Assembly: GCA_017615835.1 (NCBI GenBank)
Contig: JAFZZI010000004.1
Span: forward strand, 62,001 to 126,000
DNA length: 64,000 nt
Direction of reading: 5' to 3'
Source of the DNA: Bacteroidaceae bacterium
GTDB taxonomy: Bacteria; Bacteroidota; Bacteroidia; Bacteroidales; Bacteroidaceae
In this document: positions 6,710-55,228 of the stretch, one piece after another
Position numbering within the stretch: position 1 is the stretch's first letter
Layout of the letters: every line of letters starts with the position of its first letter
Translations under genes and position numbers: made by a program
The notes under the pieces: generated by a model
What the model was told of the DNA's origin: nothing
Seen by the model: the letters and a program-made list of their open reading frames with translations, nothing else
Databases searched by the model: none

Positions 6710-7150
6710 TTAAAGAATTTCTATCCTTCTGCTTTCCGGAGTCTTGACAGTGACTTCTTTCTTGGGAAGTGTAATGTGAAGGATGCCGTTGGTCATCTGA
6801 GCGGTAATCTTGTCCGACTCGATATCGTCCGGCAAAGTGAAAGCCTGACGGTAGGCCGAGTATGAGAACTCACGGCGCAGATAGTTTTTCTTGTCTTTTT
6901 TGTCTTCCTTGTCACTCTTTTTCTCAAGGGTTATGAGAAGCTCTCCTTCGTTGGATACCTGAACATTCAGGTCTTCCTTGTTCATTCCAGGTGCTGCCAC
7001 CTCAATCTCGAAATCTTTCTCGTTTTCGATTACATTGACTGCCGGTGAAGCAAACTGCTTTGCAGGTGTGAATGCCGGAAAACTGTCGTAAAAGAAGTCG
7101 TTGAACAGTGAAGGCAGCCAATCATTTGAATTTCTACGTGCTACTAACAT
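6710..7150 (-). CDS. Small heat shock protein, Hsp20/alpha-crystallin family
   Basis: A 146-residue cytosolic holdase that binds unfolding proteins during stress. The N-terminal region (NDWLPSLFNDFF) is aromatic-rich as usual. The alpha-crystallin domain runs from about residue 35 (PAVNVIENEKDFEIEVAAPGMNKEDLNVQV) to GILHITLPK near 130, which carries the conserved G-I-L-x-I-x-x-P-K closing strand. A lysine/aspartate-rich loop (KSDKEDKKDKK) sits in the middle. The C-terminal RRIEIL supplies the I-x-I/L motif used for oligomer assembly. It is a single-gene unit closed by the terminator at 6613. Upstream there is no good TAnnTTTG promoter but there is a sigma-54-like -24/-12 element (7229-7244) with TGACA boxes behind it; see findings. 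Confidence 0.93.
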   Translation of the reverse strand: MLVARRNSNDWLPSLFNDFFYDSFPAFTPAKQFASPAVNVIENEKDFEIEVAAPGMNKEDLNVQVSNEGELLITLEKKSDKEDKKDKKNYLRREFSYSAYRQAFTLPDDIESDKITAQMTNGILHITLPKKEVTVKTPESRRIEIL

Positions 7151-7228
7151 AATTGTAAATTTTAAAAGTTATACATTTTTATCTGTTTCAATTTCTTCCC
7201 GTATCTCTGCGGGTTTCACATGAATAGT

Positions 7229-7244
7229 TGCAAACTGAATGCCA
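7229..7244 (-). promoter_or_regulatory. sigma-54-like -24/-12 promoter of hsp20 (predicted)
   Basis: On the minus strand the sequence reads TGGCATTCAGTTTGCA. Against the consensus TGGCACG-N4-TTGCA it matches except for TT in place of CG; the invariant GG and GC dinucleotides are present with the required 12-nt offset. A start of transcription near 7218 would leave a leader of about 68 nt before the ATG at 7150. Prediction only. Confidence 0.45.
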
Positions 7245-7255
7245 GTTTATAATCA

Positions 7256-7321
7256 AGACACTATGTCTGCGTTTACTGACATACTGACATGAAATGTAGA
7301 TTTTTGCATGACAAAATGACA
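7256..7321. promoter_or_regulatory. TGACA box cluster upstream of hsp20
   Basis: A 13-bp palindrome AGACA-CTA-TGTCT (7256-7268) is followed by TGACA at 7277, 7285, 7309 and 7317. The last four start at multiples of 8 nt from each other (8, 24, 8). The region lies behind the predicted -24/-12 element of hsp20 but also upstream of the divergent DUF456 gene, so it could act on either. The word GACACTWTGTC recurs upstream of groES. Confidence 0.5.
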
Positions 7322-44970: not shown

Positions 44971-46335
44971 TTAGGCCGCAGACATAATGGTAATCGTGGT
45001 GTCCACGACATCCATCTTGAAAACAGAGTCGTTATACTCTATCCTCATGCTGTCGGGTACGGCAAAGTTGTGCCTCTCAAGCCACTCTCTGATTTCGGGC
45101 AGACTCTCTTCGTTCAGATTATGGTCTTCCAGCCATTCCTTGAGTTCTTTTGTCTCGTCTGTGTCGAAATTGTGTTTATCCAGCCATTCGTCCAGTTTGT
45201 CAAGGTCCTTTATCAGATTACCGGAGAACTCGAACACCTCTTCGATATGCATGGATTCCTGTAGTTTGTTGATGTTCCTGATGGTTGTGTAATAGCTTAC
45301 GGGTATGGCAATGAATAACAGCACGAACCACAGAATGAGCATGCACAGCCCCGGTCTCCATTTGGGCGATTCAAGGTTGAATGTAAGGAGAACGCCAACA
45401 TAACACATCAGGATAACGGGAATGGCAAACAGCATAACCACCAGAGAGTGCATCCAAGGATTGAATACAATGTTCAGGAGGCTATGCAGTCCATTGCCCA
45501 AAAATCCGAACAAACTGAATGGCAGCACAGCCCATCTTACCGCTCCTGATGCGAATATCAGGGGAATTGTAGCAGTTACTACGATAATAAGTCCAAATGA
45601 TCCTAAAATAAGCAGCAGTAAGCCTATGCAGGTGAGAAGGCATCCCCTGCCTTGTCTTGAGTTCTTCTCTCCACGACCGTGAAGGCGCTCGTATTCGGCC
45701 CTGCGGCGAAGGTCTTCAATTGAACCATCCTCTCCGCGCAGTTCCCAACGCTGTTTCGCAGTTTCTGCCTTGGGCAATACAATCCACATTATCAGGTATA
45801 ATATCAACCCTGCGAAACGCAGTGCTATAAAATGCGTGAAAAAGAATGGCACAACGCTCAAGACAAATAATAGTCTGAAAATGACAGGATCAACGTTCAG
45901 GTATTTTCCCAGACCGCCGCAAACTCCTGCTATGCGCTTATTCTCTGTATCTCGGTACAGGCGGTGCAGTTTCTTTGTATTTCCGGTTTCGTCTTTCTTT
46001 TCCGACTGACCATACACCCCCGACTTGCCTTTTTTCTCGCTTTTTGCGTATTCCGCTGATGCTTCGGCATCAGTGTGGGCGGACTCTGCCTCGGGATAAC
46101 CAAGTATTTCAATCACATTCCTGACTTCACTTTCCGAGACTACTCCATCGTACCCACAGTGCTCGTAAAGCAGCTCTGCGATGCGTTCCTCGATATTCTC
46201 CATAATCTCAGCTCCATCATCCTCTTTCAGATAGTGGTTTTCGAGGGTGGAGATATAATCTCTTACAACCTTATAAGCTTTGTCGTCAAGAGTGAACACA
46301 TAGTGTCCGATGCTAATTTTTTCAGTTTTGTCCAT
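44971..46335 (-). CDS. PspC-domain membrane protein with C-terminal triple repeat
   Basis: A 454-residue inner-membrane protein. Residues 1-80 are a soluble domain (FTLDDKAYKVVRDYISTLENHYLKEDDGAEIMENIEERIAELL) shared with the smaller PspC protein upstream. The PspC domain is at about 125-195 (LHRLYRDTENKRIAGVCGGLGKYLNVDPVIFRLLFVLS, then YLIMWIVLPKA). Further membrane segments lie at about 235-260, 270-315 and 325-350. The C-terminus has three tandem repeats of about 17 residues built on EWLxxHN: DEWLDKHNF, KEWLEDHNL, REWLERHNF. PspC proteins take part in envelope-stress signalling. Third gene of the operon; its start overlaps the padR-like gene by 14 nt. Confidence 0.85.
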   Translation of the reverse strand: MDKTEKISIGHYVFTLDDKAYKVVRDYISTLENHYLKEDDGAEIMENIEERIAELLYEHCGYDGVVSESEVRNVIEILGYPEAESAHTDAEASAEYAKSEKKGKSGVYGQSEKKDETGNTKKLHRLYRDTENKRIAGVCGGLGKYLNVDPVIFRLLFVLSVVPFFFTHFIALRFAGLILYLIMWIVLPKAETAKQRWELRGEDGSIEDLRRRAEYERLHGRGEKNSRQGRGCLLTCIGLLLLILGSFGLIIVVTATIPLIFASGAVRWAVLPFSLFGFLGNGLHSLLNIVFNPWMHSLVVMLFAIPVILMCYVGVLLTFNLESPKWRPGLCMLILWFVLLFIAIPVSYYTTIRNINKLQESMHIEEVFEFSGNLIKDLDKLDEWLDKHNFDTDETKELKEWLEDHNLNEESLPEIREWLERHNFAVPDSMRIEYNDSVFKMDVVDTTITIMSAA

Positions 46336-46660
46336 TTGTCAGCGTTTCTATTGAATCGGTAATCTCGTTCCAGACTTTTTTCATCTCATCCAGTTGCTGC
46401 CTTCCCTGTTCGGTAATGGCATAGTACTTTCGTGGCGGACCTTGAGTTGACTCCTCCCACCGGTAGGTAAGGAGTCCCTGGTTCTTCTGTCTTATAAGCA
46501 GCGGGTAGAGAGTTCCTTCCACTACCACCATTCCCGCATTCTTCAGGTCTTCGAGGATAGTGGAGGCATACTCCTCCTTATGGCTCAGGACAAGCAGAAT
46601 GCTGTACTCAATGAGTCCTTTGCGCATCTGCTGCCTAATGCTTTCGCTAAGGTTCTCCAT
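46322..46660 (-). CDS. PadR-family transcriptional regulator
   Basis: A 112-residue winged-helix regulator. MRKGLIEYSILLVLSHKEEYASTILEDLKNAGMVVVEGTLYPLLIRQKNQGLLTYRWEESTQGPPRKYYAITEQGRQQL carries the full PadR pattern, including GTLYPLL and the R-K-Y-Y-x-I-T-x-x-G wing. I start at the ATG at 46660; the frame's earlier initiator is a TTG. The gene is flanked by two PspC genes (13 nt after one, 14-nt overlap with the other), so it probably represses this operon in response to an unknown stress; the 25-bp palindrome at 47326-47350 is its best candidate operator. Confidence 0.93.
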   Translation of the reverse strand: MENLSESIRQQMRKGLIEYSILLVLSHKEEYASTILEDLKNAGMVVVEGTLYPLLIRQKNQGLLTYRWEESTQGPPRKYYAITEQGRQQLDEMKKVWNEITDSIETLTNGQN

Positions 46661-46673
46661 ATACAATTTCTTT

Positions 46674-47282
46674 TCAATAGAATTTTCTCATGTTCTCGGC
46701 TGTGGCAGCCCACCCCCTCATTTCGCATTTCTGGGCAGGAGTGACAGCCTTCGGGACAACAATCCACATGATAATGTAGAATAAAAGCCCGCCTCCGAGG
46801 AACAACACTGCCAGCAAGGCAAGCACCCTGAATACTGTTGTGTCTGAATCGAAATAGTGGGCCAATCCTGAGCACACTCCTCCAAACACTCTCTGCTCAC
46901 TGTCACGATAAAGTTTCCTTTTGCTTATGTTGATTGTTTCATGGATGTATTCGGTGCTCTTCTCTTCCGTACTCTGCTTGTTGCTTTCCGGACGCGTGTA
47001 TGGTTCGGGACTACCGTCCGGCATTCCAAGCTGACGGGTAATGTCGTTAATCAGTTGGATACCCACAGCCATGGACGGGTTCTCCAGCTGACTGAGCAAC
47101 AACTCCGAGATGCGGCTTTCAAGATCTGCCATCACCTCCTTTGTCTGTGCTTCACCAGAGGTACTTCCTGTTTCGGCTAGAACCTCCCTAAAGTTTCTCA
47201 AAAACTGGTCCAGTCTCTGATATGCATCCTCCTCGAGGCAGAAACTGCGGCCTCCAATTCCAACGTTTACAACCTTCTTCAT
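46674..47282 (-). CDS. PspC-domain protein, short form
   Basis: A 202-residue protein. The N-terminal soluble domain (MKKVVNVGIGGRSFCLEEDAYQRLDQFLRNFREVL through ADLESRISELLLSQL) resembles that of the larger PspC protein 1 kb downstream. The PspC domain is at about 120-185 (KRKLYRDSEQRVFGGVCSGLAHYFDSDTTVFRVLALLAVLFLGGGLLFYIIMWIVVPKA) with one or two membrane helices. I start at the ATG at 47282; nine codons upstream are in frame but contain the promoter elements. First gene of the PspC-PadR-PspC operon. Likely an envelope-stress membrane sensor or effector (inference from the family). Confidence 0.88.
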   Translation of the reverse strand: MKKVVNVGIGGRSFCLEEDAYQRLDQFLRNFREVLAETGSTSGEAQTKEVMADLESRISELLLSQLENPSMAVGIQLINDITRQLGMPDGSPEPYTRPESNKQSTEEKSTEYIHETINISKRKLYRDSEQRVFGGVCSGLAHYFDSDTTVFRVLALLAVLFLGGGLLFYIIMWIVVPKAVTPAQKCEMRGWAATAENMRKFY

Positions 47283-47306
47283 TGTTCGCAAAAGTAATTT
47301 ATGACA

Positions 47307-47314
47307 CAAAGATA
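47307..47314 (-). promoter_or_regulatory. -7 element of the PspC-PadR operon promoter
   Basis: Minus-strand TATCTTTG, a full TAnnTTTG match, 25 nt before the ATG. A second match, TACTTTTG (plus 47289-47296), would give an almost leaderless transcript and is less likely. The operator palindrome lies 12-36 nt upstream of the first. Confidence 0.55.
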
Positions 47315-52366: not shown

Positions 52367-54004
<1,638 letters not shown>

Positions 54005-54020: not shown

Positions 54021-54293
54021 TTAACCTAATATTGCCAGAACATCGCTCTGACGCATGATGAGATACTTTGTTCCTTCAATTTCAAGCTCTGTGCCCGAGT
54101 ATTTGCCGTATAGCACGTTGTCACCTTTCTTGAGAATCATCTTCTCGTCCTTGGTGCCTTCGCCTACTGCGATAACCTCACCTTTCAGGGGTTTCTCCTT
54201 TGCGGTATCCGGAATGATGATGCCGCCGATAGTCTTCTCCTCAGCTGCTGCGGGGAGAACCAGAACTCTGTCTGCCAATGGTTTGATGTTCAT
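54021..54293 (-). CDS. groES: Co-chaperonin GroES (10 kDa)
   Basis: A 90-residue heptameric lid of Gro[37 protein letters not shown] contains the mobile loop with the conserved [31 protein letters not shown] and the C-terminal SDVLAILG are standard. The frame is open upstream to 54449, but the ATG at 54293 gives the normal length and N-terminus. Its upstream region has a sigma-54-like -24/-12 element and TGACA boxes instead of a good TAnnTTTG promoter; see findings. Confidence 0.98.
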
Positions 54294-54362
54294 AACTATA
54301 AAAACTAAAATATTGTTGTTCCGAATTGTCACGACTTTTTCCAGCCATGCACACTTGTAACT

Positions 54363-54378
54363 TGCCAAAACCGTGCCA
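54363..54378 (-). promoter_or_regulatory. sigma-54-like -24/-12 promoter of groES-groEL (predicted)
   Basis: Minus strand reads TGGCACGGTTTTGGCA; against TGGCACG-N4-TTGCA only one position differs (G for the second T of TTGCA), and GG and GC are offset by the required 12 nt. The preceding base is T, also as in the consensus. A start near 54352 would leave a leader of about 59 nt before the ATG at 54293. Confidence 0.55.
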
Positions 54379-54409
54379 ATGCCGATTTTCCGCCTGTATG
54401 CGGCATGCT

Positions 54410-54446
54410 TGTCAGTTCTGTTATGACAGCTCTGACACTTTGTCAG
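54410..54446. promoter_or_regulatory. TGACA/TGTCA box cluster upstream of groES
   Basis: TGTCA at 54410, TGACA at 54424 and 54433, TGTCA at 54441; the last two form the palindrome CTGACA-CTT-TGTCAG (54432-54446). The cluster starts 33 nt upstream of the predicted -24 GG, as at hsp20 (34 nt). It also sits just after the cdaA stop, so the palindrome could partly act as a weak cdaA terminator. Confidence 0.5.
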
Positions 54447-54460
54447 CAAAGATGCCGGGC

Positions 54461-55228
54461 CTAACGTTCAAGCAGGAATTGCTCCAGTTCCTGCTGAGTG
54501 ATGCCGATTCTGTAACTGTTGCCTTTGAACACCGATATGCATCCTGTCTCTTCCGACACCACAATCGCAGCAGCGTCGCATAGCTGTGTGATGCCTAATG
54601 CCGCTCTGTGGCGCAGGCCAAACTGCTTTGGGACATTCTCACTGTGAGATATGGGCAGGATGCATGCTGCCGACTCAATACGGTAATTGTTTATTATCAC
54701 GGCACCATCGTGAAGCGGACTGTTCTTGAAGAAAATGTTCTCGAGGAGTTGCTGGTTAATATTGGCGTCAATAGTTTCACCGACCTGTACGAGTTCACTC
54801 AGAAGGTCATTGTTCTGGATGACTATCAAGGCTCCTTCCTTGCTGTCGCTCATACTTGAACATGCCTTGACAACCGGCTGCCACAAAGCCGCATCCTCAT
54901 TCTTCCTGTTATGCTTGGATAGCCATTTGTATAGTTTGCCGGTGCGGGTCCGAGTGCCCAGGTCGCGGAAGAATCGCCTGATGTCATCAGCGAAAAGCAC
55001 TATCAGCGCAATTACCCCCACATCGACCAGCTTGTCCAGAACCACTCCCAGAAGCTGCATCTCGAGGACCTGCGACACAATCATCCACACCAGGATGAAA
55101 ACTATGATTCCGATGAACATATTCAGGGATCCGGTTCGCTTCATCATCTTGTACAGATAGAAAAGAAGCAGGGCTACGCACAGAATATCAGCGATGTCCT
55201 TTATTCCGAAATTTGAAAAATAATCCAT
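54461..55228 (-). CDS. cdaA: Diadenylate cyclase CdaA (c-di-AMP synthase)
   Basis: A 255-residue membrane-bound DisA_N-family cyclase making cyclic di-AMP from two ATP. Three N-terminal helices (about 12-28, 36-56, 60-78: [41 protein letters not shown]) precede a linker and the catalytic domain with [35 protein letters not shown] (DGA motif) and [27 protein letters not shown] (RHR motif). The layout matches CdaA/YbbP rather than DisA. 5 nt downstream of folP and upstream of groES. Confidence 0.94.

Follow-up and report, generated by a model that had tools for sequence, protein, structure and literature searches.

Two described systems, sigma-32 (RpoH) and HrcA/CIRCE, control the same set of target genes as the one considered below. 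Sigma-54 cannot initiate transcription without an enhancer-binding activator, and single sigma-54 chaperone promoters are known elsewhere, namely those of E. coli ibpB and of Bradyrhizobium japonicum groESL3, the latter under NifA. In Bacteroidota, as far as the accessible text of the aRpoNDB survey goes (2025, PMC12316311), GroEL, GroES, IbpA, GrpE, DnaJ and DnaK are enriched as predicted sigma-54 targets, Hsp90 (COG0326) and ATP-dependent proteases (COG0542, COG0466, COG1066) are enriched as well, and sigma-54 dependence is stated for B. thetaiotaomicron GroES and GrpE, with citation of Sabree 2009. Neither groES nor rpoN is mentioned in the main text of a B. thetaiotaomicron transcription start map (PMC7366714). 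For P. gingivalis, the accessible part of another paper reports that no CIRCE was found and that different control mechanisms were assumed, and it describes RprY as a response regulator and proposed repressor giving gel shifts with groES, dnaK and clpB promoter DNA (PMC3646045).

The window, i.e., the whole stretch of 64 kb analysed here, contains groES and groEL on the minus strand together with the following elements:

54363-54379, minus strand: groES -24/-12 sigma-54 promoter element TTGGCACGGTTTTGGCA, from pattern match and conservation in Bacteroidales
54433-54445, minus strand: exact palindromic enhancer-like site TGACA-N3-TGTCA of groES, centred at about -87 from the inferred start
54410-54428, minus strand: two more groES TGWCA words, TGTCA at 54428-54424 and TGACA at 54414-54410, their starts 14 nt apart
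54021-54293, minus strand: groES (Cpn10), ATG at 54293-54291, from domain match
52367-54001, minus strand: groEL, from ORF and domain match

A preliminary description of this DNA had reported a sigma-54 match before groES at 11 of 12 fixed consensus positions, and the match is indeed found at 54379-54363, with GG (54377-54376) and GC (54365-54364) 12 nt apart. The four TGACA/TGTCA words that it placed further upstream are also there, within 54445-54410 on the minus strand; the first two form the palindrome CTGACA-AAG-TGTCAG (54446-54432; the other strand reads CTT), and TGWCA spacings of 12-14 nt are also seen in other groES upstream regions. Transcription of groES would start near 54352. Directly upstream of groES lies a cdaA-like gene (DAC and CdaA_N domains, window 54461-55228), likely a cyclic-di-AMP synthase.

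The second heat-shock locus in the window is that of hsp20:

6710-7150, minus strand: hsp20 (small heat-shock protein), from ORF and HSP20 domain match
7229-7245, minus strand: hsp20 -24/-12 element CTGGCATTCAGTTTGCA, matching 10 of 12 consensus positions
7277-7289, minus strand: proximal enhancer-like pair TGTCA-GTA-TGTCA, from word search
7309-7321, minus strand: distal enhancer-like pair TGTCA-TTT-TGTCA, exactly 32 bp from the proximal pair

The arrangement at groES had been said to recur before hsp20, and it does so as CTGGCATTCAGTTTGCA plus two TGTCA-N3-TGTCA pairs, with a predicted start near 7218. Many hsp20 upstream regions of the window's genus carry two perfect palindromes 32 bp apart, followed by the promoter. 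TGNCA-N3-TGNCA occurs seven times in the window against 1.66 expected, a count reached in none of 100 shuffles, and the three sites outside genes are all at groES and hsp20. The housekeeping word TAnnTTTG is absent from the groES and hsp20 upstream regions, as the preliminary description had stated; however, it occurs at chance level in the window (33 vs. 31.9 expected), and we therefore rejected its absence as evidence.

Allowing one mismatch at most, the sigma-54 pattern matches the 64 kb window only once, at groES (TTGGCACGGTTTTGGCA). With up to three mismatches, 88 matches were observed against 96 expected; because a pattern this loose turns up in the window no more often than chance would give, the groES site by itself proves little. 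Nor is there an excess in the whole genome when the generic consensus is searched at one mismatch (18 matches vs. 22 for the control). Such counts are what would be seen if the element were a chance match and groES were transcribed solely from a housekeeping sigma-ABfr promoter. To explore the conservation of the element, groES was sampled from 41 genomes, 40 of which had a match (44 groES matches, reduced to 30 loci), and from the best 80 of 584 relatives. The resulting 110 groES and 30 hsp20 upstream regions were reduced to 96 and 18, respectively, by excluding one of each shorter than 150 nt and removing near-duplicates. In this sample, which includes the best 80 of the 584 groES relatives, 85 of the 96 non-redundant Bacteroidales groES upstream regions have a -24/-12 element at 9 or more of 12 positions (mirrored motif, 23; shuffles, 7.6), and 57 have it at 10 or more (mirrored motif, 7; shuffles, 0.96); in these 85 rows the distance from the end of the site to the ATG is 43-92 nt, except for one row at 101 nt. 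At 9 or more positions the element is found in 15 of the 18 non-redundant hsp20 upstream regions (mirrored motif, 0; shuffles, 1.4). The scan of relatives proposed in the preliminary description was thus passed by both genes. Conservation across relatives, near the ATG, refutes a chance match as the whole story, and two independent motif searches (see below) converge; we regard this explanation as hardly conceivable. A parallel housekeeping promoter may nevertheless exist at groES alongside the sigma-54 promoter. The groES -24/-12 observation is thus confirmed, and its interpretation as a sigma-54 promoter is supported by the sequence comparisons.

The consensus of the 93 accepted groES sites in the same sample (best 80 of 584 relatives included) is TTTGGCAYRNTTTTNGYW, the sharpness of which is partly owed to the score cut by which these sites were accepted. 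Three of the 96 groES rows fail this cut; one of them (L072) has a good site beyond the 130-nt search range, and the other two (L089 and L116; 2 of 96 in the sample with the best 80 of 584 relatives) have no acceptable promoter. Porphyromonas gulae groES (L123) has only a weak site, scoring high enough to count as accepted. This weak promoter, together with the binding of RprY described in the accessible part of PMC3646045, suggests that Porphyromonas may differ.

A short hairpin was noticed at the very 5' end of the predicted transcript, in the window (54294-54352) and in the 5'-UTRs of groES and hsp20 within the window's genus (among them L028, L041, L042 and L252). By eye, the letters of its stem vary among relatives with pairing retained; it is clearest in the window's genus and absent in many others. 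The mean folding z is -1.12 over the 93 groES upstream regions versus +0.27 at the UTR end, so an RNA thermometer reading is a tendency only.

The boxes upstream of the promoter were examined in a pool of 93 groES and 28 hsp20 upstream regions (121 in total), in which about two thirds of the hsp20 rows come from one genus. In this pool, whose groES rows include the best 80 of 584 relatives, TGWCA occurs 2.74 times per 110-nt upstream region versus 0.40 in shuffles, TGSCA is mildly enriched (0.69 vs. 0.26), and four control words of similar composition show no enrichment. Again with the best 80 of 584 groES relatives included, TGNCA pairs with starts 8 nt apart number 101 against about 0.5 expected (TGACA>TGTCA 42, TGTCA>TGTCA 23, TGACA>TGACA 6 and TGTCA>TGACA 3), and a second peak lies at 32 nt, about three helical turns (53 pairs), in which the hsp20 rows of one genus weigh in. 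The pairs are also evident at groES alone: among the 93 non-redundant upstream regions (best 80 of 584 relatives included) there are 60 TGNCA-N3-TGNCA pairs at 8 nt, 86 regions have any TGWCA and 56 have the N3 pair, with 7 and 37, respectively, lacking them. The preliminary description had looked for conserved TGACA boxes behind the promoter; TGWCA is indeed enriched 10-90 nt behind the promoter site, but this does not extend to clpC. The form of the site would fit an enhancer for a dimeric activator of the Fis type.

We then derived a strict promoter pattern from the sites of groES and hsp20 and searched genomes with it, using the reversed pattern as the control. In the window's genome the pattern has eight matches versus two for the control, and six of them lie outside ORFs, at groES, hsp20, clpC, an alpha-amylase gene, a DUF3108-like gene whose ATG comes immediately after the site, and one position without a clear gene. 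The gene htpG follows clpC by 99 nt, and the clpC-htpG promoter has no TGWCA within 90 nt upstream. The promoter of grpE(-dnaJ) is TTGGCAAGGGTTTTGCA, and a palindrome ends 32 nt upstream of it; promoter and TGNCA boxes together are found before groES, hsp20 and grpE-dnaJ in this genome. In eight relatives the strict pattern has 28 matches versus 9 for the control, of which 13 are outside ORFs if one situated in a frame extension of groES (L216) is included. Nine of the 13 precede groES (6), htpG (2; named by likeness to the HtpG of the window's genome, read by eye) or dnaK (1), and the others are at a thioredoxin gene (L225), a DUF3737 gene, an HNH-like gene (by eye) and one position without a gene. 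One genome (G264) has the activator described below and no strict-pattern match. A search of six genomes with the exact palindrome gave 31 matches versus 16 for the control. Nine of these are outside ORFs of at least 110 aa, and seven of the nine are followed, 11-72 nt further on, by a promoter that scores at least 14 of 15 and then by groES, grpE-dnaJ or hsp20; none of the 22 palindromes inside ORFs has a downstream promoter scoring above 12.5. The promoter-pattern and palindrome searches, independent of each other, meet on one gene set.

Several further sites were observed in the window's genome. A sigma-54-like site with TGACA-ATT-TGTC just upstream (L017, G000:C28:44273) has no same-direction ORF of at least 60 aa within 500 nt downstream, and its target may be a small RNA or a small protein. 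The alpha-amylase gene with its sigma-54-like site is at L197 (G000:C32:17979). A perfect palindrome without a good promoter lies at a glycogen-debranching-like gene (by eye; L283, G000:C27:6561), and a sigma-54-like site 52 nt before secA (L020, G000:C30:233012) falls within a 103-aa ORF that is possibly unreal.

The window's genome encodes RpoN (PF04552, E 7e-46), as do 290 of 296 Bacteroidia genomes in total. No rpoN was found in the remaining six, but these assemblies are split into 130-460 contigs and five have an rpoN-bearing congener, so the misses look like assembly gaps. There is one true sigma-54 activator in the window's genome (C27, L002); three other matches are much weaker, and one of these (L003) is clpC. 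The activator has 402 residues, with an AAA+ domain from residue 15 (PF00158, E 6.9e-67), a GAFTGA loop (GSFTSA or GAFTSA in three relatives) and a terminal Fis-type helix-turn-helix (HTH_8, E 9.2e-15). No receiver-domain match and no sensor domain were found in it, which sets it apart from the NtrC-type two-component regulators, and it stays below the cut-off of every curated NCBIfam model among the matches listed. A single activator at E up to 1e-20 was found in 9 of the 20 genomes searched, this one included, and the eight relatives concerned are 90-100% complete. Because sigma-54 needs an activator and only one is encoded, that activator must serve all sigma-54 promoters in these genomes, those of the chaperone genes included. 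The window's own assembly is 82% complete, so a further activator, or HrcA, for which this assembly has no PF01628 match, could be missing from it.

In a tree of 30 activators, seven rows of which fill under half of the columns, 18 proteins, each from a different genome and 393-438 aa long, group in a single clade (support 99/97), and a 386-aa activator of genome G027 falls outside it. Two genomes outside the clade have a 54-65% identical protein beside lptE, and an activator of this lptE-linked type is present in all 20 Bacteroidia genomes checked; identity to the activator of the window's genome is 46-70% over 16 relatives. A linker motif (like LYKVLFDLRRDVTE) between the AAA+ domain and the helix-turn-helix is found in 11 of the 18 clade members and in none of the 12 other activators. 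The activator is beside lptE in 9 of 11 neighbourhoods, and secG is in 6. In G027, which has two further activators, there is a row of activator, lptE, a 194-aa gene, secG, groES and groEL (L295, 238-5082), possibly an old order; linkage of activator and groES as a general rule was rejected, since they are adjacent in only 1 of 11 neighbourhoods. Two adjacent PspC-domain proteins (211 and 454 aa) are encoded in the window at 44971-47309; the sole true activator of this genome lacks a receiver, as PspF does.

It could be argued that the promoter does depend on sigma-54 but that something other than the activator, for example a repressor or a response regulator of the RprY kind, recognises TGACA-N3-TGTCA, and that the activator acts from elsewhere or from solution. 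Regulators of the OmpR type, RprY among them, recognise direct repeats spaced by about 10-11 nt; the 8-nt pairs found here are mainly inverted and recur at 32 nt, as for dimers on one face of the DNA. The window's genome and the eight 90-100% complete relatives have one activator each, and that of the window's genome ends in a Fis-type helix-turn-helix. Some sites are nonetheless very near the promoter, with TGWCA words most frequent (in 10-nt bins) at 10-19 nt upstream of the -24 element (sample including the best 80 of 584 groES relatives), clpC-htpG has the promoter without sites, and RprY of P. gingivalis bound chaperone promoter DNA in the accessible part of PMC3646045. On balance we find a separate regulator quite improbable, and sites bound by the lptE-linked activator would fit the data better.

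It is very likely that groESL belongs to a sigma-54 protein-quality-control regulon, the core of which consists of the promoter, the site, the activator and the regulon itself. At the level of sequence, the conservation of promoter and site, the membership of the regulon and the presence of rpoN with a single activator are established; the dependence of the chaperone genes on rpoN, the binding of the activator to the TGACA-N3-TGTCA sites and its mode of sensing are what we infer from them. RNA polymerase with RpoN would be held as a closed complex on TTGGCAY-N5-T-N-GY. Dimers of the receiver-less activator (AAA+, GAFTGA, Fis-type helix-turn-helix; lptE neighbour) would occupy sites resembling TGACA-N3-TGTCA, located 10-90 nt upstream, and open the promoter using ATP. 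Genes hsp20 and grpE-dnaJ would be served likewise, clpC-htpG probably so (promoter, no boxes), and dnaK and htpG in relatives. Accumulating unfolded protein would free or activate the activator, perhaps via the linker motif.

Heat is probably the main signal, a claim that overlaps with another explanation, in which the regulon, with its elements and activator, exists but responds mainly to envelope or LPS-assembly stress, redox or nitrogen, with heat secondary. Receiver-less PspF serves envelope stress, the activator is beside lptE in most neighbourhoods, and sites are also found at the thioredoxin gene of a relative and at secA. The targets, however, are cytoplasmic chaperones (groESL, grpE-dnaJ, hsp20, clpC-htpG and dnaK), and we consider a different main signal rather unlikely. 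A more far-reaching proposal is that one dedicated receiver-less sigma-54 activator runs the whole cytoplasmic heat-shock response of Bacteroidia, with the linker motif sensing unfolded protein or free chaperone and with unusually close tandem palindromes as its sites of action, and that this task explains both the rarity of rpoN loss and its survival in some shrunken insect-symbiont genomes; we put this forward tentatively, as slightly less likely than not.

A reduced genome bears on the last point. G064, a single contig of 489,825 bases, retains RpoN and an activator of the lptE-linked type, the sole one there. Its groES upstream region (11% GC) has two TGTCA words and TGGCATAAAAAATG, of the pattern TGGCAT-N6-TG, found by reading the region rather than by pattern; both features occurred together in 1 of 20,000 shuffles (5e-5), the pattern having been chosen after the region was seen. 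The promoter pattern alone was tried on G064 and set aside (50 matches at two mismatches vs. 9 for the reversed control; none of 11 inspected was convincing). In the accessible text of PMC3971599, retention of RpoN in flavobacterial insect endosymbionts is called unusual, with nitrogen tentatively suggested as the reason, and one of the four insect-symbiont genomes compared is marked as lacking rpoN, so the system can be lost. Control of chaperones would be a simpler reason for this retention, though not one forbidding loss, and is a possible answer to the puzzle raised there (PMC3971599).

The preliminary description regarded a sigma-54 chaperone regulon as a new control scheme. The promoter half is not new, since for Bacteroidota a control of GroES and further chaperones by sigma-54 was already predicted (PMC12316311). 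The accessible text of that survey names no enhancer site or activator for the chaperone genes; what is added here is the lptE-linked activator candidate and, as a putative enhancer, TGACA-N3-TGTCA with its spacing. Among the titles listed from open-access full texts, a scope that takes in few subscription papers, none deals with the lptE-linked activator or the enhancer site. The control of heat-shock genes in Bacteroidales is not settled, judging from the accessible part of PMC3646045, and activator and site offer a concrete candidate, narrowing the putative switch to one activator gene, one 13-bp site and a short list of targets. RprY binds chaperone promoters in another member of Bacteroidales, as the candidate activator would do here, and differs in not being an enhancer-binding protein (PMC3646045, accessible part). 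The activator is like PspF in having AAA+ and then a Fis-type helix-turn-helix without a receiver, and TIGR02974 matches over residues 16-398; however, the match has 267.9 bits against a cut-off of 443.55, which places the protein below the curated model, and the activator differs further in its extra linker motif (11 of 18 members), its lptE neighbour and its putative cytoplasmic chaperone targets. Unlike control by sigma-32 or HrcA/CIRCE, the scheme would use sigma-54 and an ATP-driven activator, with no HrcA seen in a genome 82% complete; ATP-driven opening could combine a tight off state of the heat-shock genes with strong induction, in contrast to a competing sigma factor or a repressor. 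Finally, ibpB and groESL3 are single genes under the activators of other systems, whereas a whole regulon with one activator appears to be served here.
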